Assembly (NCBI GenBank): GCA_016870795.1
Contig: VGAJ01000004.1
Coordinates: forward strand, 1 to 64,000
DNA length: 64,000 nt
Source of the DNA: Actinomycetota bacterium
GTDB lineage: Bacteria > Actinomycetota > Actinomycetes > Nanopelagicales > Nanopelagicaceae
Reading direction: 5' to 3'
A program made the translations under genes and the position numbers. The notes under the pieces are model-generated. The model did no database searches. It was not told the origin of the DNA and saw only the letters and a list, made by a program, of their open reading frames with translations. Of the stretch, positions 13,226-64,000 are shown piece after piece; the first letter of the stretch is position 1; each line of letters opens with the position of its first letter.

Positions 13226-14374
13226 ATGGCCGAAGTTGTTAGAGCCCCTGGGCTAAATGAGCTAAGAGGCCGCAAGAGCGCTAAGTGGCGATTTTTCCCC
13301 AGCGATGTTCTGCCCCTACCAGTTGCTGAAATGGATTTCCCGATAGCAGAACCAATTAAGCAAGCACTTCATGACATGGTTAATCGCTCTGATACGGGCT
13401 ATTTAGGTCCGATGCCAGAGCTATTTGAAGCATTTTCTAAGTTTGCAGATACGCGTTGGGGATGGAAAGTTGATCCTGCACATATTCGCACCGCAACTGA
13501 TGCTGGAGTTGCAGCAGTTGAAGTAATTCGAACTCTATTAAAGCCTGGCGAGAAACTGATGGTTAATTCTCCAGTTTATGAAAATTTCTGGACCTGGCCT
13601 AAAGAAGTTAGTGCAACCTTAGTTGATGTTCCACTAAAGCAAGAGGGAGAGAGTTACTGGCTTGATTTAGATGGTATTGAACGAGAATATAAAGCTGGAG
13701 TAAAAGTTCATCTGCTCTGCCATCCACACAATCCAGTAGGAGTTATCTTTGAAAAAGAAGTGCTAGTAACGCTTGCTTCATTGGCTAAAAAATATGGTGT
13801 TGTAATTTTAAGCGATGAAATCCATGCACCACTTGTCTATAAAGGACGCGATTTTCAACCCTTTATGGCCATTAGTGATGATGCCCGCGAAGTATGTGTG
13901 GCTATCTCTGGCTCTGGAAAAGCCTTTAATCTAGCTGGACTTAAATGCGCTCTAATCATTACAGGATCAGATGAGCTAAAGCAGCGAATTAACGCAATGC
14001 CTGAATCTGTTGGCTATCGAGCCTCAATATTTGGAGCAGTTGCAACAGCTGCTGGCTTTAGTCAATCAATTGATTGGTTAGATGGTGTCATTGCAACACT
14101 TGAGGAGAATAAGGTTTTGATCAGGAATCTAATTGATAGCAAGATTCCCTCGATTACCTATCGAGAGCCTGACTTTAGCTATTTGGCCTGGCTTGATCTC
14201 TCTGCTCTTAATTTAGGAGATGACCCGGCCAAGCATCTTTTGGAGAGAGGAAAGGTAGCTTTCAAAGGTGGTTATATGTATGGGCCAAACCATAAGCAAT
14301 ATATTCGCTTTAACTTTGGAACCAGCCCTGAGATTATTACTGAGGCATTTGATCGCATCCTTAAATCTCTATGA
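13226..14374 (+). CDS. MalY/PatB-type PLP aminotransferase or C-S lyase
   Basis: WRFFPSDVLPLPVAEMDFPIAEPIKQAL, CHPHNPVGVIF, SDEIHAPLVY, SGSGKAFNLAGLK. Confidence 0.88.
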   Translation: MAEVVRAPGLNELRGRKSAKWRFFPSDVLPLPVAEMDFPIAEPIKQALHDMVNRSDTGYLGPMPELFEAFSKFADTRWGWKVDPAHIRTATDAGVAAVEVIRTLLKPGEKLMVNSPVYENFWTWPKEVSATLVDVPLKQEGESYWLDLDGIEREYKAGVKVHLLCHPHNPVGVIFEKEVLVTLASLAKKYGVVILSDEIHAPLVYKGRDFQPFMAISDDAREVCVAISGSGKAFNLAGLKCALIITGSDELKQRINAMPESVGYRASIFGAVATAAGFSQSIDWLDGVIATLEENKVLIRNLIDSKIPSITYREPDFSYLAWLDLSALNLGDDPAKHLLERGKVAFKGGYMYGPNHKQYIRFNFGTSPEIITEAFDRILKSL

Positions 14375-15912
14375 AGAGATATGACGCGGTAGTCATTGGC
14401 AGTGGTCATAACGGCCTGGTTGCAGCTTGCTATCTAGCGAAAGCTGGAAAGAGCGTTTTAGTTCTGGAGAAAAGCGCCTCACTCGGGGGAGCAACAACGA
14501 GTGTTAAGGCATTTAAAGGAGTTGATGCCAAACTCTCTAGATATTCATATTTAGTCTCACTACTACCAGATCAAATCGTTAAAGATTTATCACTTGATTT
14601 TGAAACTATTGGCCGAAAAGTATCTTCCTATACCCCCTACTTTGATGGTGAGAGTGATAAGGGGCTATTGATTAATTCAGAGTTTGATCAAGAAAGTAGA
14701 GATTCACTCTCTGAGCTAACAGAAAGTGATGATGAAGCAATCGCTTGGGAGAACTTCTATCAATCTATTAAGGAGTTTGCTGAAGTAGTTGCCCCAACTA
14801 TGTTAAAGCCAGTACCAACAGAGTCAGAGATAAAGGAGTTGGTAGATCCACTTACCTGGATAGAGCTCGTTGAAAATACCTTAGCTCAGAGCCTGTACGA
14901 TAATTTCTTCGATGATTTAGTAAAAGGTGTAGTCCTTACCGATGGGCTTATCGGCACCTTTACTAGCGCTGATGATCACCTGGCTAATAAGTGCTTTATC
15001 TATCATGTTATTGGAAACTTAAGCGGGCAGTGGCGAGTTCCCAAAGGCGGGATGGGCGTTCTAGTGGATCAACTGCTAATTAGGGCCAAGCAACTAGGTG
15101 TTGAAATAGCTGCTAGCCAAGAGGTTACTTCAATTACTCAAGGTGATAATCATCTACTGATTAAGACGATAGATGGGCAGAGCTATGAAGCAAGAGTTGC
15201 GCTAGCAAATTGCGCCCCTACGGTATTAGAGAAGATCACTGACTTTAAGGCGCCACCACTTCGAGATGGTTCGCAGGTGAAGATAAATATGGTTTTGAAA
15301 GAGCTACCAAAGCTAAAAAGTGGCGTTGATCCAAAAGTAGCCTTCGCTGGAACATTTCATGTAAATGAGAGCTACTTTGAATTAGAGCAGGCTTTTGCTC
15401 AAGCAAGACTTGGTCAAATTCCAGATGTCATTCCCTCCGAGCTTTACTGTCATACCCTCACTGATCCAACAATTCTTCATCCAGATTTGATAGCTGCTGG
15501 ATATCAAAGCCTTACTCTCTTTGCCTTGCATCTTCCAGCCTCACTCTTTGATAACGAGCATGACCGGATTAAGGCTGAGGTGAGTAAGAGAATTTTGGAT
15601 GGTTTTAGCCAGTACCTGGAGAGGCCAATTGAGAGTTATCTAGCTAAAGATAGTGACGGCCATCTCTGTATTGAGGTTAAAACCCCGCAAGAGTTAGAAA
15701 AAGAGCTTGGACTACCCAGAGGCAATATCTTTCATAGCGATCTCGAATTTCCTTGGAAGCAGGATGCGGATAGCAGAAAGTGGGGAGTTGAAACTAATTC
15801 AGAGCGAATTTTCCTAGCCGGTGCTGGTGCGCTTCGTGGCGGTGGGGTTAGTGGAATTGCTGGACATAACGCTGCTATGGCTGCGTTGGAAACTTTAGCA
15901 AAGCTGCCATAG
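14371..15912 (+). CDS. Phytoene-dehydrogenase-like NAD(P)/FAD-dependent oxidoreductase
   Basis: N-terminal YDAVVIGSGHNGLVAACYLAKAGKSVLVLEKSASLGGAT; C-terminal IFLAGAGALRGGGVSGIAGHNAA. Confidence 0.88.
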   Translation: MKRYDAVVIGSGHNGLVAACYLAKAGKSVLVLEKSASLGGATTSVKAFKGVDAKLSRYSYLVSLLPDQIVKDLSLDFETIGRKVSSYTPYFDGESDKGLLINSEFDQESRDSLSELTESDDEAIAWENFYQSIKEFAEVVAPTMLKPVPTESEIKELVDPLTWIELVENTLAQSLYDNFFDDLVKGVVLTDGLIGTFTSADDHLANKCFIYHVIGNLSGQWRVPKGGMGVLVDQLLIRAKQLGVEIAASQEVTSITQGDNHLLIKTIDGQSYEARVALANCAPTVLEKITDFKAPPLRDGSQVKINMVLKELPKLKSGVDPKVAFAGTFHVNESYFELEQAFAQARLGQIPDVIPSELYCHTLTDPTILHPDLIAAGYQSLTLFALHLPASLFDNEHDRIKAEVSKRILDGFSQYLERPIESYLAKDSDGHLCIEVKTPQELEKELGLPRGNIFHSDLEFPWKQDADSRKWGVETNSERIFLAGAGALRGGGVSGIAGHNAAMAALETLAKLP

Positions 15913-24222: not shown

Positions 24223-24707
24223 TGTCGGGTGTAGTTCCAAAAATATCACTTGGTGACTTGAGCCAATTTAGGGTTGCAATAATCTCTGCTAGCTGGCATG
24301 AGCAGATCTGCGCTGATTTGATCGCAGGTGCTAGAAAAGCTTTAGATTCGGCGAAAATTAAGCCAGAACCAGTCATCTATGTCCCTGGCTCTTTTGAATT
24401 ACCCCTTGCTGCTCAATTAGCTCTTGATAGCGGCTTTGATGCTTCCGTTGTGCTTGGAGTTGTTCTAAGAGGTGAGACTCCACACTTTGATTATGTCTGC
24501 CAGGGAGTAACGCAGGGGATTATGCAAGTATCTCTTTCAAGATCTAAGCCCATTGGCTTTGGAGTTTTAACTGTCGACACTGTTGAGCAAGCAATTGCAA
24601 GAAGCGGGATTGCTGGAAGCAAGGAAGATAAAGGCTTTGATTCAGCAGTTGCAGCACTTGAATTACTTAGAGTGAAGAGAGATTTACCTGTTCTGAGGAA
24701 ATCCTAG
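24222..24707 (+). CDS. ribH: 6,7-dimethyl-8-ribityllumazine synthase
   Basis: VPGSFELPLAAQ, VLRGETPHFDYVCQGVTQGIMQ, GFGVLTVDTVEQA. Confidence 0.97.
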   Translation: MSGVVPKISLGDLSQFRVAIISASWHEQICADLIAGARKALDSAKIKPEPVIYVPGSFELPLAAQLALDSGFDASVVLGVVLRGETPHFDYVCQGVTQGIMQVSLSRSKPIGFGVLTVDTVEQAIARSGIAGSKEDKGFDSAVAALELLRVKRDLPVLRKS

Positions 24708-26183
24708 ATTTATCCCACCATGGCTTGGATCAAGCCAGCGACTCGTAACTACCTTGCCTCTAGTAAAGAAATGAACGCCTTCCATTCCATGGGCGTGAGT
24801 ATCACCAAATAGTGAGTTCTTCCAGCCGCCAAAGGAATAATAAGCAGTTGGCACAGGAATTGGCACATTAATCCCAATCATTCCAACCTGAACTTCATTT
24901 TGGAATCTTCTAGCAGCTCCACCATCATTGGTAAAAATTGCAGTTCCATTTCCATATTGATGTTTATTTATTAACTCAAGGCCCTGGTCATAGCTAGAAA
25001 CTCGAATCACCGAGAGAACTGGTCCAAAGATTTCATCCTTATAAATACTCATCTCAGGTGTTACTTGATCAAAGAGAGTTGGCCCTAGCCAGAAACCCTC
25101 TGCTGCTCCATTAACTTTTGGATTACGACCATCGACAACTAACTTTGCTCCGGCACTTACTCCTGCATCGATATAGGAGGCAACTTTGTCGCGGTGAACT
25201 GCGGTGACAAGAGGTCCCATATCTGAACCTGCGCTGCCATCTCCAGTCTTGAGTCCTGTCATGCGCCCTGAAATTTTCTTAATTAGCTCATCAGCAACAG
25301 GTTCAACAACAACTAGAGCTGAGATTGCCATACAACGCTCACCAGCTGAGCCAAAGCCAGCATTTACTGCAGCATCTGCTGCTAGATCAAGATCTGCATC
25401 AGGAAGGACCAACATATGATTTTTTGCCCCACCGAGTGCTTGAACTCGCTTGCCATTTTTAGTGCCATTTTCATAGATATATCGAGCAATCGGAGTAGAT
25501 CCCACAAAAGAAATTGATGCAACATCTGGATGAGCGAGCAGACTATCTACTGCAACTTTATCGCCATGGATAACATTAAATACTCCATCAGGAAGACCTG
25601 CCTCTTTCCAGAATTCTGCAACGAGATTAATAGCAGATGGATCTTTCTCACTTGGCTTGATAATGACTGCATTTCCTGCAGCGATAGCGATTGGGAAGAA
25701 CCACATAGGCACCATCGCTGGAAAATTAAAGGGCGAGATGATGGCGCAAACACCAAGTGGCTGGCGAATTGAATAGACATCGATATTAGTTGAAGCTCCT
25801 TCAGAGTATGCACCTTTTAATAGATGGGGGATTCCACAGGCAAACTCCACCACTTCAAGTCCTCTAGTTACCTCACCTAGTGCATCTGATAAGACTTTGC
25901 CATGCTCAGCGGTGATTAACTTCGCTACCTCTTCTTTTCTAGCATTTAATATTTCTCTAAAAGCAAAAAGAACTTGCACTCTCTTGGCAAGGGATGCTTG
26001 AGCCCATTGCTCTTGAGCTTTCTTTGCAACTTTAACGCCATGATCAATAAGTTCTGGGGAAGCAAAATCTACCTTTGCAGTAAATCTTCCTGTTGCTGGG
26101 TTATAGACATCACCACTTCTTGCAGCGCTCTCTTTCCAATAGGCGCCATCTATGTGATGGGTAATTCTTCGTACTTCACTCAT
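24684..26183 (-). CDS. mmsA: CoA-acylating methylmalonate-semialdehyde dehydrogenase
   Basis: GVCAIISPFNFPAMVPMWFFPIAIAAGN, ALGGAKNHMLVLPDAD, GSAGERCMAISA, SLFGDTHAHGMEGVHFFTRGKVVTSRW. Confidence 0.95.
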   Translation of the reverse strand: MSEVRRITHHIDGAYWKESAARSGDVYNPATGRFTAKVDFASPELIDHGVKVAKKAQEQWAQASLAKRVQVLFAFREILNARKEEVAKLITAEHGKVLSDALGEVTRGLEVVEFACGIPHLLKGAYSEGASTNIDVYSIRQPLGVCAIISPFNFPAMVPMWFFPIAIAAGNAVIIKPSEKDPSAINLVAEFWKEAGLPDGVFNVIHGDKVAVDSLLAHPDVASISFVGSTPIARYIYENGTKNGKRVQALGGAKNHMLVLPDADLDLAADAAVNAGFGSAGERCMAISALVVVEPVADELIKKISGRMTGLKTGDGSAGSDMGPLVTAVHRDKVASYIDAGVSAGAKLVVDGRNPKVNGAAEGFWLGPTLFDQVTPEMSIYKDEIFGPVLSVIRVSSYDQGLELINKHQYGNGTAIFTNDGGAARRFQNEVQVGMIGINVPIPVPTAYYSFGGWKNSLFGDTHAHGMEGVHFFTRGKVVTSRWLDPSHGGINLGFPQNR

Positions 26184-26188
26184 CTCTA

Positions 26189-27541
26189 TTATGCCCCCGT
26201 GTAGTACTTATCAATCTGAGTAAATGCTTTATCAAGTATTGCAAGTCCTTCGTTAAATTCTGCCTCAGTGATATTGCAAGGTGGTACTACATGCATGCGA
26301 CTAAAGTTGGTAAAAGGCATTAAACCAAGCTTTTTACATTCACCCACTAGCTCATTCATCGCAGTAGATGATCCGCCATAAGGGGCAAGTGGCGCTCTGC
26401 TTATGCGATCTGTCACTAAATCAAGAGCCCAGAAGGTTCCTTGGCCTCTAACTTCTCCAATGACTCGATGCTTGCTAGCTAAATCACGAAGACCTGGGCC
26501 AATTACCTTCTCGCCAATTGTGGCTGCAGCTTCAACAATTTTTTCATCTTTCATAGCATCAATAGTTGCAACCGCTGCTGCGCAAGCAAGCGGATGGCCG
26601 GAGTAGGTAAGGCCGCCAGGAAATACTCGATCTTTAAAGGTCTCTGCAATTTCTTTTGAGATTACAACCCCACCAAGTGGGACATATCCAGAATTAACTC
26701 CTTTAGCAAAGACGATTAAATCTGGATGAGCAGTTGAATGTTGGTAGGCAAACCATTTTCCAGTTCTTCCAAATCCTGACATCACTTCATCGGCTATCCA
26801 TAAAATTCCATACTTATCACAGAGGCGCCTTACTCCCTCTAGATATCCCTTTGGTGGAATTAAGACTCCTGCGGTGCCAACAACAGATTCAATCAAGATA
26901 GCTGCAATTGTCTTCGGTCCTTCAAATTCAATAACGCTCTCTAGATGTTCAAGGGCTCTCTGGCACTCTTCCTCTTCGCTCTTTGCCCAAAAAGCACTTC
27001 GATAAAGGTATGGTCCAAAGAAGTGAACATGGCCATAGCCAAATTCATTTGGCCATCTTCTTGGATCTCCTGTTGCTGAAATAGCAGAGGTGGTATTGCC
27101 GTGATAGGAGCGATAGAAAGAGAGAATTTTATGGCGTGAGGTATGGATACGAGCCATTCTGATCGCATTTTCTATGCCATCTGCTCCGCCATTAGTGAAG
27201 AAAACCTTTTCATGATTTGGACTTGCAAGGCTGACAATCCTTGAAGCAGCTTCACCTCTGGCTTCATTTGCTGCTTGTGGGGCAATAGTGGTTAGAAGCT
27301 CTGCTTGTTTCTTTATTGCATCAATTACTTTTGGGTGTTGAAATCCAATATTGGTAAAGACTAGTTGGCAGGAGAAATCTAAGTACTTTTTTCCATCAAA
27401 ATCCCAGAAATATGAACCACTGCCGCCTGCAATTGGAAGTGGTGTGATTTGACCCTGAGCAGACCAGGAGTGAAATACATACTTTCTATCAAGGTCGTAG
27501 ACCTCTTTACCTCTAGCGGGATTGGGGATGAACTCGGCCAT
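26189..27541 (-). CDS. Class III (omega-amino acid) aminotransferase
   Basis: FFTNGGADGIENAIRMAR, WIADEVMSGFGRTGKWFA, FAKGVNSGYVPLGGVV (PLP lysine). Confidence 0.92.
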   Translation of the reverse strand: MAEFIPNPARGKEVYDLDRKYVFHSWSAQGQITPLPIAGGSGSYFWDFDGKKYLDFSCQLVFTNIGFQHPKVIDAIKKQAELLTTIAPQAANEARGEAASRIVSLASPNHEKVFFTNGGADGIENAIRMARIHTSRHKILSFYRSYHGNTTSAISATGDPRRWPNEFGYGHVHFFGPYLYRSAFWAKSEEEECQRALEHLESVIEFEGPKTIAAILIESVVGTAGVLIPPKGYLEGVRRLCDKYGILWIADEVMSGFGRTGKWFAYQHSTAHPDLIVFAKGVNSGYVPLGGVVISKEIAETFKDRVFPGGLTYSGHPLACAAAVATIDAMKDEKIVEAAATIGEKVIGPGLRDLASKHRVIGEVRGQGTFWALDLVTDRISRAPLAPYGGSSTAMNELVGECKKLGLMPFTNFSRMHVVPPCNITEAEFNEGLAILDKAFTQIDKYYTGA

Positions 27542-57700: not shown

Positions 57701-59092
57701 TTAGAGAGAGGAGGCCAATTCCTCAATTACGTCAAAGAGTGACAGCACATCTTCTTTAGTAGTTCTAAAATTTGTGTAACAAGGTCTCAGCCAAGTTTGA
57801 CCATCAATCTTGGCAGTTGATAAGTAAAAACGGCCATCATCCAAAATTTTCTTGCAGAGTCGTTCATTAAAATCACTGGAATCAGAGTGACTTGGGTCCA
57901 CGAATTGAATTGGTGTAATTGATAGCTGGGGTGGATTTGCAAGAGTTCTAAAGTTATGACGTTCTGACGCAATTCGATAGGTCAACTCTGCAAGTTCGAT
58001 ATTCTTTTCTATGGCTTCCTTAAATGCATTTGCTCCATGAGTTTTGAATGCTACCCACAGCTTAAGGGCGCGAAGTGGGCGAGAATATTCAAGAGTTAGA
58101 TCAACCGGATTGTACTTTTCTTCTTCATGAGGCATGTAAGCCTCGTGGTGAGAGAAAGTTGTAGCAAGCATCGCTTGGTTTTTCACAAGTAGAAGTGAGC
58201 AAGATTTTGGAACGAATAGCCACTTATGTGCATCAATCGTAATTGAGTCAGCTTGATCGATTCCAACGAATAGATTGGAGCGATGAGTGGCTGCAGCAGG
58301 AACACCATAGGCACCGTCGACATGCAACCAAATCTTTTCGCTTCTTGCTACCTCAGAGATTTTATCTATTGAATCCACTGCGCCAGTCAGGGTAGTGCCA
58401 CCGGTGGCTACAATTGCGATTGGTATAACACCTTCGACTAAGTCTCTCTCAATTTGTTTCTCTAATTCTTTAACTGACATACGATGGTTTTCGTCAATTG
58501 GTATCAGGCGGAGGGCATCCGTACCAATTCCCAGTACTTCAACAGCTCTGCTAACTGAGTAGTGTGATTCGCTAGAGGCATAGATAGCTACTTTCTCATA
58601 GTTTCCAGCTTTTCTAGAGTTGGGAAGCGCAGCACTTCTAGCTGTTGCCAACGCAGTTAAGTTGCTAACCATTCCACCGGAAGTGAAATATCCAATTGCC
58701 TCGCCGTAGCCAATGAACTCTGAAACCCACTTTGCCGTCTGCTCTTCCAAAAGAGTAGAAGCCTTCGAGTCAATTGCATGGTTTATGTCATAAGAGGAGG
58801 TGAGAAAATCTGCTATCGCCCCCACTTCAAGACCGCTAGATCCAATATAGGCCAGAAATCTGGGTCGGGATTGAGCGATAGAGGAATCAAGGATGTCAAT
58901 TGACTCCCTTAGAACAATTAAAATTTCACTGGCATGACGGGGCAATTTAGCAGCAAGAAGTTCACTCATTTCACTTGTAACTTCAGGTTCCTTATCACGC
59001 GCTCGATCAAAACTGCTCCAGATTCTCTCCATTTCATCTGCTAGAAAATCCAAAACGAGATGGCGATCTTGACCTATTCGCATTCGCTCCAT
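57701..59092 (-). CDS. Group II PLP-dependent (aromatic-L-amino-acid-type) decarboxylase
   Basis: SRPRFLAYIGSSG, GYFTSGGMVSNLTAL, SSESHYSVSRA, VDGAYG, DSITIDAHKWLFVPKSCSLLLVK (PLP lysine). Confidence 0.9.
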   Translation of the reverse strand: MERMRIGQDRHLVLDFLADEMERIWSSFDRARDKEPEVTSEMSELLAAKLPRHASEILIVLRESIDILDSSIAQSRPRFLAYIGSSGLEVGAIADFLTSSYDINHAIDSKASTLLEEQTAKWVSEFIGYGEAIGYFTSGGMVSNLTALATARSAALPNSRKAGNYEKVAIYASSESHYSVSRAVEVLGIGTDALRLIPIDENHRMSVKELEKQIERDLVEGVIPIAIVATGGTTLTGAVDSIDKISEVARSEKIWLHVDGAYGVPAAATHRSNLFVGIDQADSITIDAHKWLFVPKSCSLLLVKNQAMLATTFSHHEAYMPHEEEKYNPVDLTLEYSRPLRALKLWVAFKTHGANAFKEAIEKNIELAELTYRIASERHNFRTLANPPQLSITPIQFVDPSHSDSSDFNERLCKKILDDGRFYLSTAKIDGQTWLRPCYTNFRTTKEDVLSLFDVIEELASSL

Positions 59093-59349
59093 TAACGTCT
59101 CATCAACTCTATAGAGATGGCAAGTTGAGCGCGATGTAGTCGAGTCACTAATTCTGATTGTCGAATACCCAAATCTTGAGATACATCAGAGAAAGTCCGT
59201 CTCTGGTAGAGAATTCCCAGCGCAACTTCTTTAAGGGGCTCAGGGAGAGTTTGTATCGCAGCAAGAAGATCCTTGGCTGCAATCTTAGAGAGGTCAACTT
59301 TTTCCCCATCATCTTCAAACGAAATGTCAAGATCAAAAAAATTGCTCAT
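59092..59349 (-). CDS. Stand-alone sigma-70 region-4-like HTH protein (85 aa)
   Basis: LLAAIQTLPEPLKEVALGILYQRRTFSDVSQDLGIRQSELVTRLHRAQLAI resembles ECF region 4; no region 2 present. Confidence 0.65.
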   Translation of the reverse strand: MSNFFDLDISFEDDGEKVDLSKIAAKDLLAAIQTLPEPLKEVALGILYQRRTFSDVSQDLGIRQSELVTRLHRAQLAISIELMRR

Positions 59350-60545
59350 AAGCGTATCTCTTCTCTCAAAGCACTTATTTTTCGGCGCATACCAATTCCT
59401 GCTACTGCGACCACACTTCCTTCTCTTCGATATTCAAATATAAATTCGCTATCCAAACTTCCTTCCAAAAGTGAAATTGTGTCAGCGATTTTTGGCTCCC
59501 CATAGGAAAGGATGCTAATACTGAATTGATCGCTCCAGAAGGAGGGCAGTGGATTGAAGTGCTCGCCTTGCTTAAATTCGGAGGAGCTCTCTGACCCCTC
59601 TATGGCCGAAATCTCTCGTCCAACCCTCTTGCCACACTCAACAGGAATATTCCAATGCTCAATTCGCCGTGCGGGAAGAGCAATATTTAAATAGGGAAAG
59701 CGCGCAATATCGCCTACGACAAATAGATCCTCGACCCTGCTCTTATCTATTCGCATGGCGCGAAGACTGTTATCGGTTAGCACACCGTTGCCCATTTCTA
59801 GGTTGTTTCCCTCTAGCCACTCGGTGTTGGTTTGGGAGCCAACTGCTTCAATTAAGAGATCACATTCAAGAATTTCACCATCGCTAAGGAGAACCCCAGA
59901 GATTCTTTGATCACCAATTAAATCTTGGACACTTCTGTTTAAATGAAATTGGACACCCTCTTTCTCATGGCGTTTCTGCACTGCTAGTCCGAAATCATCT
60001 CCAAGAATTGGAGAAAGTGGAATTGCTTCCAACGCAACTATGGCTACGCTGCACCCAAGGGTTCTAAGAGTCGCTGCTAACTCAAGGCCAATGAAACCAG
60101 CGCCAAGTATGACTACCTTCTTTTCCGGAGTCGCAGCTGCGCCAATCGCTTTGGCATCATCGAAAGTGCGTAAGTTGTAGCGACCAAGTTTAAGATTGTT
60201 TGGAAAGTGCATTTGTCTAGATCGAAGTCCAGTTGCTGCTACTAAATAGTCATATTCAAGATTGCGACCAGAGGCAAGATAAATTCTCTTTTCATGACAT
60301 GAAAGAGAGGTTGCCGGATCTGCCAATATGAATTCTGCCTTCAATTCCGAATCTTTTATTGGGAATGCAACAGCATCAAAATCCTTGCCTTGGGCCAACA
60401 GATCTTTAGAAAGTGGTGGTCGGTTATAGGGAAGATGCTTTTCTCCACCGACAATTGTGATGTCTCCGGAATATCCGAATCGCCGTAGCGATTCAGCAGT
60501 TCGCAGGCCCCCCATGGCTGCACCGACGATGAGGACCTTACTCAA
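59346..60545 (-). CDS. NAD(P)H:ferredoxin/rubredoxin reductase-type FAD oxidoreductase
   Basis: VLIVGAAMGGLRTAESLRRFGYSGDITIVGGEKHLPYNRPPLSKDLL; VVILGAGFIGLELAATLRTLG; VGDIARFP. Confidence 0.92.
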   Translation of the reverse strand: MSKVLIVGAAMGGLRTAESLRRFGYSGDITIVGGEKHLPYNRPPLSKDLLAQGKDFDAVAFPIKDSELKAEFILADPATSLSCHEKRIYLASGRNLEYDYLVAATGLRSRQMHFPNNLKLGRYNLRTFDDAKAIGAAATPEKKVVILGAGFIGLELAATLRTLGCSVAIVALEAIPLSPILGDDFGLAVQKRHEKEGVQFHLNRSVQDLIGDQRISGVLLSDGEILECDLLIEAVGSQTNTEWLEGNNLEMGNGVLTDNSLRAMRIDKSRVEDLFVVGDIARFPYLNIALPARRIEHWNIPVECGKRVGREISAIEGSESSSEFKQGEHFNPLPSFWSDQFSISILSYGEPKIADTISLLEGSLDSEFIFEYRREGSVVAVAGIGMRRKISALREEIRL

Positions 60546-60580
60546 CAGCCACCCATCCGATCTCTAGCATTTGAGGTGAA

Positions 60581-60772
60581 TTACTGGACTATGGTGATGG
60601 CTTGCATAGGACAGACATCGGCAGCCTCTTTAACATTATTAAGTTCAGCGTCATCAGCTGTGGCAATGTATTCGAGTTTATCCTCTGAATTAAGCTGAAA
60701 AATGTTAGGGGCTTCGTAAACACATTGGCCGTAGTGTTGGCACTTCTCCATATCCACTTGGATTTTAATCAT
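60581..60772 (-). CDS. Short P450-type ferredoxin (probable [3Fe-4S])
   Basis: MIKIQVDMEKCQHYGQCVYEAPNIFQL...ADVCPMQAITI; three-Cys pattern C-x5-C...CP. Confidence 0.9.
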   Translation of the reverse strand: MIKIQVDMEKCQHYGQCVYEAPNIFQLNSEDKLEYIATADDAELNNVKEAADVCPMQAITIVQ

Positions 60773-60787
60773 TTACTTTTCCTTTCT

Positions 60788-61666
60788 TTATTCTTTTGAC
60801 TCAACGACAGTAGATGGATAGAGATCTTTTGATGGCGTACGAATTCCTCGGAATTCCCAATCGCCGCCCATGGCTGTTGAGATTACCTCTTCGCTTTCAG
60901 TAGGTTGTGCGCCGACTTCAGAGCTAATGCTTGCACCTTCAATAACCCTATTGCTTAGCCTTCCAAGTCCCTCAACTTCGACTTCTACCATGTCACCTGG
61001 CATGACAGGTCGAGAATTCGCTGGAGTGCCTGAAAAAATCATATCTCCAGGCACTAAAGTAATAGTGCGCGCAATATCTGCAACAAGATAATGCATGTTC
61101 CACTCCATATTGTCAGTGTTATCTTCTTGCTTGAGAAGACCATTGACATAGGTGCGAATTAACTTATTTCTAAAGTCCCAGTCAGTAACTATTCCTGGGC
61201 CAACTGGCGCCAAAGAATCAGCTCCCTTAACTCTTAACATTGAGCCAGCATCAGTATCTCGGAAGTCATGTAGGCCAAAGTCATTTCCAACGCTATATCC
61301 GGCGATGTACTTACCAGCCTGATCGAGAGCAATGTCTTTACAGGTCTTTCCAATAATTATTACAATTTCACCCTCGTAATTAAGCCAATTACATCGCTTT
61401 GGACGAACTACCTCGCCTTTGTGCGAATTCAGCGCAGTTATGGGCTTATGAAAGTATGTTGGAGCTGAAGGAAGCTTTGTTAAGAATTCCTTAGTACGGC
61501 TCTCGTAGTTTAGATGCACTGCAATTATCTTTGTCGGCTCTGCAGGTGGTAGGTGGACGGCTTCTTCAATTGCGAAGCTCCGACCATCTTTAGAAATTAG
61601 AAAATCACCTTTTCGTTCTACCTCTAGGCAATCACCATCGACTTTAATCCTGCGATACTCAGTCAC
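60788..61666 (-). CDS. Fumarylacetoacetate-hydrolase-family protein (HpaG-type isomerase/decarboxylase)
   Basis: NYEGEIVIIIGKTCKDI, GYSVGNDFGLHDFR, PGDMIFSGTPAN; GTG start at 61666 overlaps the upstream ORF by 8 nt; track start 61786 lies inside that ORF. Confidence 0.9.
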   Translation of the reverse strand: MTEYRRIKVDGDCLEVERKGDFLISKDGRSFAIEEAVHLPPAEPTKIIAVHLNYESRTKEFLTKLPSAPTYFHKPITALNSHKGEVVRPKRCNWLNYEGEIVIIIGKTCKDIALDQAGKYIAGYSVGNDFGLHDFRDTDAGSMLRVKGADSLAPVGPGIVTDWDFRNKLIRTYVNGLLKQEDNTDNMEWNMHYLVADIARTITLVPGDMIFSGTPANSRPVMPGDMVEVEVEGLGRLSNRVIEGASISSEVGAQPTESEEVISTAMGGDWEFRGIRTPSKDLYPSTVVESKE

Positions 61667-62570
61667 GGGAGAGCACCAAATCCTTTGGTTGCGCAAAGCC
61701 AGCTTCAGGCTCAGGAAAATAGAGATGCACTTGTCCAGTGCCGACAGAGTTCTCATATTGGCTATACAACAAGCCCTTTGCTTCATTTCGTTCTTCGCCT
61801 AGTGCGCCAGCCATTGCTAGATAGTGATAGAAACCAGCCTCCGGTTTGTATTTTCGGAAAGTGTCGAAGTCGGCAAGAATTGCAGCATGATTTCCTTCTC
61901 GCATCCAATTGATAACTTTGAGATCGTACTGATAAGCCTCAGGAGAATAAATATGAATCGGATCGCTCGCTTCGTGCTTGCGTAGATCCCGCAGTTTATG
62001 GAAAGTATGCGAGAGCGCGCCGGATGCAATCAAAACCACTTTTCTATCGCTATCACGAATTGCTTCACCTAGAGCCCGACCGGCGCGAATAAAGTCTTCT
62101 GGTGTACCGGTTTGGCAAACTGACATGCTGATCCATCGCTTTTCATCTAGGCCGCGGCCGAGGTAGTGCCAGAGATTTAGGGTCGCATAGAAAATTGGAA
62201 GGTGAGGATCGGCTATCGGAGTGATCCACGTTCCATTTTTTTCATCGTACTTCGAAAGCGACTTGGCAAGTTCTGGATCGCCCTTAATTGCATAGGGAAT
62301 CTGCGTCATACCCCTTGGTAATTCTTCTGAAGTAAATAGGCCAGAGCGCTCCGCAGCTGAAGTTATAACAAATTCAACTGTGGTCGCCCAATGGCTATCA
62401 AGGACAACTACTGTGTCATAGTCCAGCGTTTCAAAGACATCAGATCTAAGCTTCTTCAAACCTGGTACGAGGCTAATTTCTTTTCCTTCATTAAGGTCTT
62501 TACGAACAACCTCTGGCAACATAATTGTTGGCACATGTGCTAACAGAGCGGCTCCAACGACCTTTCCCAT
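61659..62570 (-). CDS. LigB-type extradiol dioxygenase, HpcB/HpaD-like (3,4-dihydroxyphenylacetate 2,3-dioxygenase)
   Basis: AALLAHVPTIMLPE, DTVVVLDSHWATTVEFVI, VLIASGALSHTFH, SVGTGQVHLYFPEPEAGF; AAGGAG RBS before ATG 62570. Confidence 0.85.
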   Translation of the reverse strand: MGKVVGAALLAHVPTIMLPEVVRKDLNEGKEISLVPGLKKLRSDVFETLDYDTVVVLDSHWATTVEFVITSAAERSGLFTSEELPRGMTQIPYAIKGDPELAKSLSKYDEKNGTWITPIADPHLPIFYATLNLWHYLGRGLDEKRWISMSVCQTGTPEDFIRAGRALGEAIRDSDRKVVLIASGALSHTFHKLRDLRKHEASDPIHIYSPEAYQYDLKVINWMREGNHAAILADFDTFRKYKPEAGFYHYLAMAGALGEERNEAKGLLYSQYENSVGTGQVHLYFPEPEAGFAQPKDLVLSRD

Positions 62571-62574
62571 CCTC

Positions 62575-64000
62575 TTACTCCTTCCATCCATTTGGCGCGA
62601 TTACAGTGTTCTTGACATCTGCATAGAAATCAAATGACCAAGTACCACCATCTCTACCAATACCTGATTTTTTCGAACCACCAAAAGGCGCACGAAGGTC
62701 TCTGATAAAGAAGCAGTTAACCCATATTGTTCCAGCAACTAGGTTTTTCGTTATCTTGGCTGCATGTTCCCTCTTGCCTGAGACAACCACTGCCGCTAGA
62801 CCAAACTCTGTGTCATTGGCCATGTTAAGGGCTTGATCATCGTTGGTGAAAGTTTGCATGCAAAGCACTGGGCCAAAAATTTCTTCACGGAATATCTCAC
62901 TCTTTGTATCTGGCTTCATAACAAGAGTCGGTTGATAATAGAGGCCACCCAAGTGCTCATTCGGAGCGCCACCAAGAACAATCTCTGCCCCCTCTTCTTT
63001 CGCACGTTCGACAAATCCTGCGATTTTGGAGAGATGGTCTTTATGAATCTGTGGACCCATTTGAGTTTCTTCTACTCGAGGGTCTCCTTGTTTAATTAGT
63101 GAAGCCTTCTTTATAAACAACTTTGTAAAGTCATCGGCCACGCTCTGATGAACCAGTAACCTGGTCCCAGAGAGACAGACTTGACCAGCATTGTCGTATT
63201 GCTCCACAGCCAGAGTAGTGGCCAGATCAAGATCTGCATCTTCCAAGACAATAAGGGGACTCTTTCCTCCTAATTCAAAGGTTATAGGAGTGAGATTATC
63301 TGCTGCCGCCCGGGCAATTTTTTTTGCAGTTGGGACAGAGCCAGTAAATGAGATTCTCGAGATTCCAGGATGCTTTGTTAGCGCAGCCCCAGCTTGTTCG
63401 CCAAGACCGAATATCACATTAAAAACACCTTTTGGCATCCCAGCCTTGACTGTTAGATCTGCAAAGAAACTTGCAGTAAGCGGCGTCCACTCAGCTGGTT
63501 TAAGAACTACCGTATCGCCAGCGGCAAGTGCTGGACCAATCTTCCAAGTAGCAAGCATTAATGGCGCATTCCATGGCGTAATTAGAGCTGCGACTCCTGA
63601 TGGATCCCAAGAAACATTATTAGAGTGACCACGAGTTTCGAAGGGTTCATGTTTAAGATTGTTACTAGCCCACTCCGCAAAAAAACGAATATTGGCTGCA
63701 GCTCGCGGCATTACGCCTCTTATATGAGAGCGCAACAGAGCTCCGTTATCAAGGGTCTCTATTTGAGCCAGAGTCTCGACATTGTCTTCAATCAACTTTG
63801 CTAGGCGTTCTAGAATTTCACCGCGTCCATGGGGACCTAAATCTCGCCATGCTGGAAATGCGGCATTAGCTGCATTAACTGCAAGATCTACTTCCTTCGT
63901 ATCACCTAAAGCAAAGTCTCCAAGGAATTGACCATCTATTGGTGAAGTATTCTTCAAAGTTTGCTCTGAAGAAATCCGTTCACCATTAATGAAGTGGCAG
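62575..64000 (-). CDS. Aldehyde dehydrogenase, HpaE-like (5-carboxymethyl-2-hydroxymuconate semialdehyde dehydrogenase); 5' end outside the window
   Basis: TPWNAPLMLATWKIGPALAAGDTVVLKPAEWTPLTA, FELGGKSPLIVLEDADLDLA, GQVCLSGTRLLV. Frame stays open past the TTG at 63957 (HFINGERISSEQTLKNTSPIDG), so the true start is beyond 64000. Confidence 0.88.
   Translation of the reverse strand, partial: CHFINGERISSEQTLKNTSPIDGQFLGDFALGDTKEVDLAVNAANAAFPAWRDLGPHGRGEILERLAKLIEDNVETLAQIETLDNGALLRSHIRGVMPRAAANIRFFAEWASNNLKHEPFETRGHSNNVSWDPSGVAALITPWNAPLMLATWKIGPALAAGDTVVLKPAEWTPLTASFFADLTVKAGMPKGVFNVIFGLGEQAGAALTKHPGISRISFTGSVPTAKKIARAAADNLTPITFELGGKSPLIVLEDADLDLATTLAVEQYDNAGQVCLSGTRLLVHQSVADDFTKLFIKKASLIKQGDPRVEETQMGPQIHKDHLSKIAGFVERAKEEGAEIVLGGAPNEHLGGLYYQPTLVMKPDTKSEIFREEIFGPVLCMQTFTNDDQALNMANDTEFGLAAVVVSGKREHAAKITKNLVAGTIWVNCFFIRDLRAPFGGSKKSGIGRDGGTWSFDFYADVKNTVIAPNGWKE

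Follow-up and report, generated by a model that had tools for sequence, protein, structure and literature searches.

A conserved actinobacterial gene cluster predicted to degrade a tyramine-like amine by gamma-glutamylation and aromatic ring cleavage

Which pathway is encoded by the block of aromatic-degradation genes that runs off the right end of a 64,000-nucleotide stretch of Nanopelagicaceae DNA (the window, contig C4:1-64000 of a 1.05 Mb, 79% complete host genome)? The first-pass annotation placed seven co-directional minus-strand genes at 57701-64000 and suggested a possible route from tyrosine, DOPA or tyramine to homoprotocatechuate. All seven genes are present there and make up the left-hand half of a larger cluster, about 14 genes in all, which is cut by the window edge and reaches contig position 71367. 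We hold, with slightly more confidence than doubt, that this cluster is one regulon which would degrade a tyramine-like aromatic amine. The amine would be gamma-glutamylated, hydroxylated, meta-cleaved with the glutamyl tag still attached, and split to pyruvate and gamma-glutamyl-4-aminobutanal.

The contig ends at 71591, and the host locus discussed here (L008) spans contig 56500-71591 in coordinates that continue those of the window (Table 1). The identities guessed for the enzymes of the seven-gene block were borne out by matches to Pfam Aldedh, LigB, FAA_hydrolase, Fer4_15, Pyr_redox_2, and Pyridoxal_deC. The ferredoxin pair had been expected to feed an oxygenase encoded past the right edge, and a P450 was found there. 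P450, ferredoxin, and FAD-dependent reductase are co-encoded as a ferredoxin-dependent P450 system across related loci (P450 in 70/70, ferredoxin in 76/78, reductase in 72/73).

Two proteins of the right half bear most directly on the chemistry. The glutamine synthetase (GS)-like ligase keeps the GS catalytic domain, and by alignment the Asp of the D50 position, but the E327-flap Glu of the ammonium site is replaced by Leu312, which is conserved in at least 95% of 49 orthologues. A GS catalytic domain with a lost ammonium-site Glu is the PuuA, GlnA3/4, and NpaA1 type, and the same loss of the flap Glu has been described in GlnA4 and PauA7, two enzymes that attach glutamate to organic amines (PMC6529630). 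The cluster protein shares with GlnA4 and PauA7 a non-polar residue at this position but belongs to a distinct subfamily, with a best NCBIfam score of 252 bits that lies below every cut-off. We infer that it glutamylates an organic amine and not ammonium.

The second protein belongs to the acetoacetate-decarboxylase (ADC) superfamily. Its best solved relative is MppR (156 bits), and its Lys126, conserved in at least 95% of orthologues, aligns with MppR K156, which we take to be the Schiff-base lysine. This protein is predicted to act as a pyruvate-releasing hydratase-aldolase. It resembles MppR/Sbi00515 in sequence and in the aligned lysine, and pyruvate-aldol chemistry is MppR’s, whereas the cluster gene is conserved and catabolic and is proposed to run in the cleaving direction. 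The nearest proposal concerns the archaeal ADC-superfamily relatives Sso1221/Sso1222, for which a similar role in phenol meta-cleavage was suggested (PMC7820114). Together, the GS-like ligase, two glutamine amidotransferases (GATases), MppR-like enzyme, and permease indicate a gamma-glutamylated intermediate and an exit through gamma-aminobutyrate (GABA).

Table 1 Genes and palindrome sites of the cluster in the host genome (contig coordinates, continuing those of the window)
Feature	Position	Strand	Evidence
AADC-like group II pyridoxal-phosphate decarboxylase (putative tyrosine/aromatic L-amino-acid decarboxylase)	57701..59092	-	Pyridoxal_deC 6e-58; best solved relative 4obu, 208 bits
85-aa stand-alone sigma-region-4-like helix-turn-helix protein	59092..59349	-	AlphaFold/Foldseek predicted fold sigma4/KorA-like
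FAD-dependent ferredoxin reductase, HcaD/AndAa type, proposed P450 partner	59346..60545	-	profile matches
63-aa single-cluster ferredoxin (CxxYxxC...CP), kind partnering P450s	60581..60772	-	Fer4_15 8e-13
FAH-family protein, HpaG C-terminal (decarboxylase)-like, single domain	60788..61666	-	TIGR02303 192.9 bits, cut-off 276.4
LigB-type extradiol dioxygenase, HpaD-like	61659..62570	-	PF02900 1e-22; TIGR02298 127.7 bits, cut-off 315.95
HpaE-like semialdehyde dehydrogenase, crosses window edge	62575..64000	-	TIGR02299 507.9 bits (window fragment), cut-off 638.35
Palindrome, aldehyde dehydrogenase/PuuD region	64087-64104		
PuuD-like C26 hydrolase	64131-64853	+	
HpaR-like MarR regulator	64850-65362	-	best model HpaR
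Palindrome, MarR/P450 region	65450-65467		
P450	65480-66721	+	
Class I GATase (second GATase)	66728-67447	-	
Palindrome, GATase/GS region	67522-67539		
GS-like ligase	67559-68920	+	PF00120 2e-89
ADC/MppR-like protein (ADC superfamily)	68930-69742	-	
Palindrome, ADC/APC region	69839-69856		
APC permease	69886-71367	+	

The seven-gene block is tightly packed. Its genes overlap or abut: the helix-turn-helix and reductase genes share positions 59346-59349, and the GTG start of the FAH gene, at 61666, falls among the final codons of the dioxygenase gene, whose stop is at 61659. The start of the aldehyde dehydrogenase (ALDH) gene lies beyond the window edge, at an ATG at contig 64080 or a GTG at 64023. 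To the right of this ALDH operon, P450, GATase, GS, ADC, and APC are single genes on alternating strands (L008:7500-14868), an alternation that is itself conserved across families and that leaves four divergent promoter regions.

An 18-bp palindrome, TCGTTnGnnnCCnAACGA, is present in all four of these regions, and for this reason we treat the cluster as one regulon. The four sites are the only matrix matches in the host locus (threshold 11; scores 23.8-28.3); within the window, positions 1-57000 yield no match scoring 13 or above. A separate pattern search of the same 15 kb returned 8 strand matches against 0.18 expected, and none of 200 shuffles scored as high. Perfect half-sites occur in 49/59 GATase/GS regions and 42/51 ADC/APC regions, with a score never reached in shuffled regions. 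Relatives, including those with rearranged loci, also carry the palindrome upstream of the corresponding genes. The cluster’s own MarR protein is presumably the factor that binds the palindrome and controls the four divergent units.

Is this arrangement a chance assembly? A dioxygenase search of the genome collection returned 80 loci, onto which all 14 cluster proteins were mapped. The gene order sought in relatives recurs in dozens of genomes, which excludes a chance arrangement of the block, and all ten core genes are found in 45/53 actinobacterial loci long enough to judge them. The common order, APC-ADC-GS-GATase-P450-MarR-(PuuD)-ALDH-dioxygenase-FAH-ferredoxin-reductase, was seen in freshwater and marine Microbacteriaceae, in Nanopelagicales, and in others. 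Presence varies by gene, from GS-like (64/64 loci) and FAH (83/83) to PuuD (49/76) and the small helix-turn-helix protein (36/66). L102, from a 9.2-Mb genome, and L101, from another genus, retain most of these gene families but arrange them differently; scrambled order with the same content was recorded in genomes G078 and G086. The dioxygenase occurs in only 8/100 relatives, and in our tree the host DHPAO-type dioxygenase groups with freshwater Nanopelagicales proteins. Dioxygenase copies from the host family fall into two clades that lie apart in the tree, one next to Microbacteriaceae and the other close to Blastococcus, which suggests that they were acquired separately. The patchy presence and split placement fit horizontal spread, more than one change being no proof of transfer. 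The GC content of the cluster does not depart from that of the remainder of the window.

Does the cluster then encode the classical homoprotocatechuate (HPC) pathway? The ring-cleavage block is HPC-like, as first annotated, in that the ALDH scores best on HpaE, the dioxygenase best on HpaD, and the FAH protein matches the C-terminal part of HpaG, but all three fall below the curated equivalog cut-offs, the ALDH on its window fragment. The best model of the regulator, HpaR, is a further HPC likeness. The nearest fold to the modelled dioxygenase is 8iq8, the A. baumannii DHPAO. The search past position 64000 and through the genome for the remaining genes yielded the P450 but not the missing HPC enzymes. 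CHMI (PF02962) exceeded its cut-off in 0/12 genomes, among them the host, G056, and the host's congener G004 (96% complete), a search of unproven sensitivity in that no control genome matched. HpaI (PF03328) gave only weak matches in frames of about 480 aa in the host, G004, and G056, which we take as pyruvate kinase; larger genomes carry other PF03328 family members. HpaB, the 4-hydroxyphenylacetate 3-hydroxylase (PF03241), was found in 1/12 genomes, which was not the host, G004, or G056. These three also lack a Cu-amine oxidase, and searches of the host and G004 detected no strong flavin aromatic hydroxylase. We also considered a flavin monoamine oxidase elsewhere in the host and rejected it: two Amino_oxidase matches adjoin carotenoid-type genes, and a third (window 14371-15912) looks CrtI-like, with no NCBIfam model matched at 1e-40. 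With sub-cut-off models and these gaps, the tyrosine/DOPA/tyramine-to-homoprotocatechuate route was not upheld as a complete classical pathway. Relative to E. coli-type hpa/hpc systems, the cluster shares consecutive HpaE-, HpaD-, and HpaG-type enzymes, an HpaR-type MarR regulator, and the ring-opening logic. It differs in adding a P450, GS-like ligase, GATases, MppR-like enzyme, and amine permease, in a single-domain FAH protein where E. coli has two domains, and in a host without CHMI, HpaB, and HpaI.

We infer the substrate, the order of reactions, and each catalytic assignment below from sequence. Tyramine, most likely the substrate, would either enter the cell through the APC permease or be formed when the decarboxylase acts on tyrosine. 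The GS-like enzyme would join glutamate to the amine, giving gamma-glutamyl-tyramine, and the P450, fed by ferredoxin and reductase, would add a second ring hydroxyl to give gamma-glutamyl-dopamine. One P450 system would suffice because tyramine needs just one ring hydroxylation. The LigB-type dioxygenase would then open the ring, and on chemical grounds the gamma-glutamyl tag may block cyclisation of the amine onto the ring-fission semialdehyde. The HpaE-like ALDH would oxidise this semialdehyde and the HpaG-like FAH protein would decarboxylate the product, after which the MppR-like protein would serve as hydratase and pyruvate-aldolase in place of HpaH and HpaI. The side chain being CH2CH2NH-Glu and not CH2COOH, loss of pyruvate would leave gamma-glutamyl-4-aminobutanal, a PuuC substrate, where homoprotocatechuate would yield succinic semialdehyde. 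An ALDH, followed by the PuuD-like and GATase hydrolases, would finally release glutamate and GABA, the latter for GabT, with the HpaR-like protein acting on the shared palindrome to control the four units.

We give roughly even chances that meta-cleavage with the tag on, completed by an ADC-superfamily hydratase-aldolase, constitutes an undescribed route from tyramine or dopamine to GABA without an amine oxidase. The open-access literature that we searched (subscription journals not covered) contained no description of such a route, and nothing joining homoprotocatechuate, gamma-glutamyl, GS, and P450. Its reports on gamma-glutamyl-tyramine or gamma-glutamyl-dopamine concern other subjects, e.g., methanofuran/methylofuran coenzymes, metabolomics, and molluscs.

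Genes for both ends of the proposed route recur beside the cluster. The decarboxylase had been linked to the system at the outset, and this association held: orthologues of 48–71% identity occur at different positions in several lineages (as the last gene of the main operon, past an additional ALDH, or to the left of the permease), with a more distant decarboxylase within Salinibacterium clusters. Its best solved relative, 4obu, is presumably the R. gnavus tryptophan decarboxylase. The recurrence of an amino-acid decarboxylase suggests that the amine is probably a decarboxylated aromatic amino acid. At the other end, an aminobutyraldehyde dehydrogenase-type ALDH (ABALDH) lies downstream of the cluster in L020, L028, L031, L034, and L073, as classified by model in L020 and L031 and by position and similarity in the other three. 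A PuuC-type ALDH is found in L102 and beside L068, and GabT beside L068 and L064; the host carries ABALDH and GabT outside the cluster. Co-occurrence of the cluster with ABALDH or GabT was dropped as an uninformative test, both genes being widespread in the family. The E. coli Puu pathway offers a parallel, with its permease, GS-like ligase, gamma-glutamyl-aldehyde oxidation, and C26 hydrolase releasing GABA, and PuuC- and PuuD-like genes recur here. However, gamma-glutamyl-aminobutanal would arise here from an opened aromatic ring and there arises from putrescine oxidation, and the cluster has no PuuB counterpart.

Could the tag be lost before the ring is cleaved? In that case the P450 would N-dealkylate the gamma-glutamyl amine to an arylacetaldehyde, which an ALDH would convert to 4-hydroxyphenylacetate, followed by 3,4-dihydroxyphenylacetate and a near-classical HPC pathway whose end products are pyruvate and succinic semialdehyde. 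The HpaE and HpaD best models, the HpaG match, the HpaR-like regulator, and the two ALDHs of several loci are consistent with this course, and the GcoA-like second P450s or Rieske pair of some loci might supply a second oxygenase. However, two oxygenations are needed, and most loci, like the host, have one cluster oxygenase, the host also being without HpaB or a flavin hydroxylase. Every HPC model falls below its cut-off and the PuuD, PuuC, ABALDH, and GabT neighbours are left unexplained, so we consider early loss of the tag unlikely. The presence of demethylase-like genes in some loci raises another option, in which the substrate is methoxylated (e.g., 3-methoxytyramine or homovanillate) and the core P450 serves as its O-demethylase. 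GcoA-like P450s beside the cluster in L099, L100, L084, and L088 and the Rieske pair of L101 speak for it; yet these are extras missing from most loci, and the core P450 is not GcoA-like, its nearest structures being CYP125/CYP124. We regard this option as quite improbable.

An aniline-type pathway, with the nitrogen on the ring, would use the GS-like ligase, GATase, and oxygenase as TdnQ/TdnT/TdnA, a P450 replacing the Rieske enzyme, followed by catechol meta-cleavage. In the aniline/chloroaniline (TdnQ, AtdA1) and 1-naphthylamine (NpaA1) pathways, a GATase is the third member of the set, the oxygenase is Rieske-type, and the tag is lost at oxygenation. The cluster resembles these pathways in combining GS-like ligase, GATase, and oxygenase with later extradiol cleavage, but uses a P450 and is proposed to keep the tag through ring cleavage. 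A GS-like enzyme and an oxygenase open aniline and 1-naphthylamine degradation (PMC11335346), and 2-aminophenol dioxygenases appear among the fold neighbours of the modelled dioxygenase. The recurrent decarboxylase nevertheless indicates an amine on an alkyl side chain, the ring-cleavage genes are HPC-like and not catechol-like, and the GABA-branch neighbours require a two-carbon side chain; ring-borne nitrogen thus seems a poor prospect. Finally, two independent systems might simply adjoin, one a meta-cleavage operon for aromatics and the other a gene set for amine glutamylation and transport, and the alternating strands do make a single transcript impossible. The same palindrome precedes both gene sets, and both stay together through rearranged loci, which leaves this explanation strongly disfavoured.

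Several points nonetheless count against the proposed gamma-glutamyl route. The sequences do not single out one amine as the substrate. Against a PuuD model cut-off of 266 bits, the PuuD-like protein reaches only 55.8, and its gene is missing in Microcella and Salinibacterium. The palindrome did not turn up ahead of decarboxylase, ABALDH, or GabT genes that lie outside the core. The mere presence of ABALDH and GabT proves little because both are widespread in the family, and the enzyme absences rest mainly on G004 because the host assembly is 79% complete. The host has one other P450, located elsewhere, and G004 has one of similar score.

Loci in relatives carry additional genes. The GcoA-like second P450 (aromatic O-demethylase type) of some lineages lies at L099:4042-5235, L084:13277-14455, and L088:2-550, and also occurs in L100; in L084 and L088 its I-helix carries the unusual motif GGMQEPGHG. 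A dicamba-O-demethylase-like Rieske oxygenase and reductase lie inside the cluster at L101:10463-12497, where the ferredoxin and reductase typical of the cluster are absent. These extra oxygenases suggest that methoxylated amines are funnelled in at some loci. A 4,5-DOPA-extradiol-dioxygenase-like gene adjoins an AADC orthologue beside the permease at L110:13240-15460. In the congener (L108, G004:C13:1-7300, and L109), one side of the cluster carries a further APC, a further GS-like gene, and an ALDH, and the other carries two histone-deacetylase-like amidohydrolases and LIV-type ABC genes, flanks that we read as an amine-use island. The right flank of L064/L068, from Alpinimonas and a relative, contains a PucR-like regulator, GabT, a glutamate dehydrogenase-like gene, an agmatine deiminase-like gene, and a distant decarboxylase. 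Within the window, a methylmalonate-semialdehyde dehydrogenase and aminotransferase pair lies at 24684-27541; a similar pair borders the cluster on its left edge in L023, and an ALDH resembling that of the pair is also found in L075.

The small protein first described as a sigma-4-like helix-turn-helix retains this description by predicted fold, which is sigma-4/KorA-like, but its sigma-region-4 profile matches are sub-threshold, and no Pfam or NCBIfam model scored above cut-off for the family. The family (motif FDLDxxFE...SDVSQxLGIRQxELVxRLHRA, alignment A1) is conserved inside or adjoining the cluster. A role as part of a defence system was rejected, as a PADLOC match was absent.

Cultured strains of Aurantimicrobium, Microcella, and Alpinimonas carry the cluster, and close relatives are amenable to genome editing (PMC11577799), which together make the proposal testable now. 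If true, gamma-glutamyl protection and extradiol ring cleavage would be merged in one amine-oxidase-free route that converts an aromatic amine to pyruvate and GABA, each directly usable. MppR-type ADC-like proteins, whose degradative role has so far only been guessed, would gain a natural catabolic job. Abundant streamlined freshwater actinobacteria, thought to be users of simple substrates, would then be predicted to consume tyramine-like amines.

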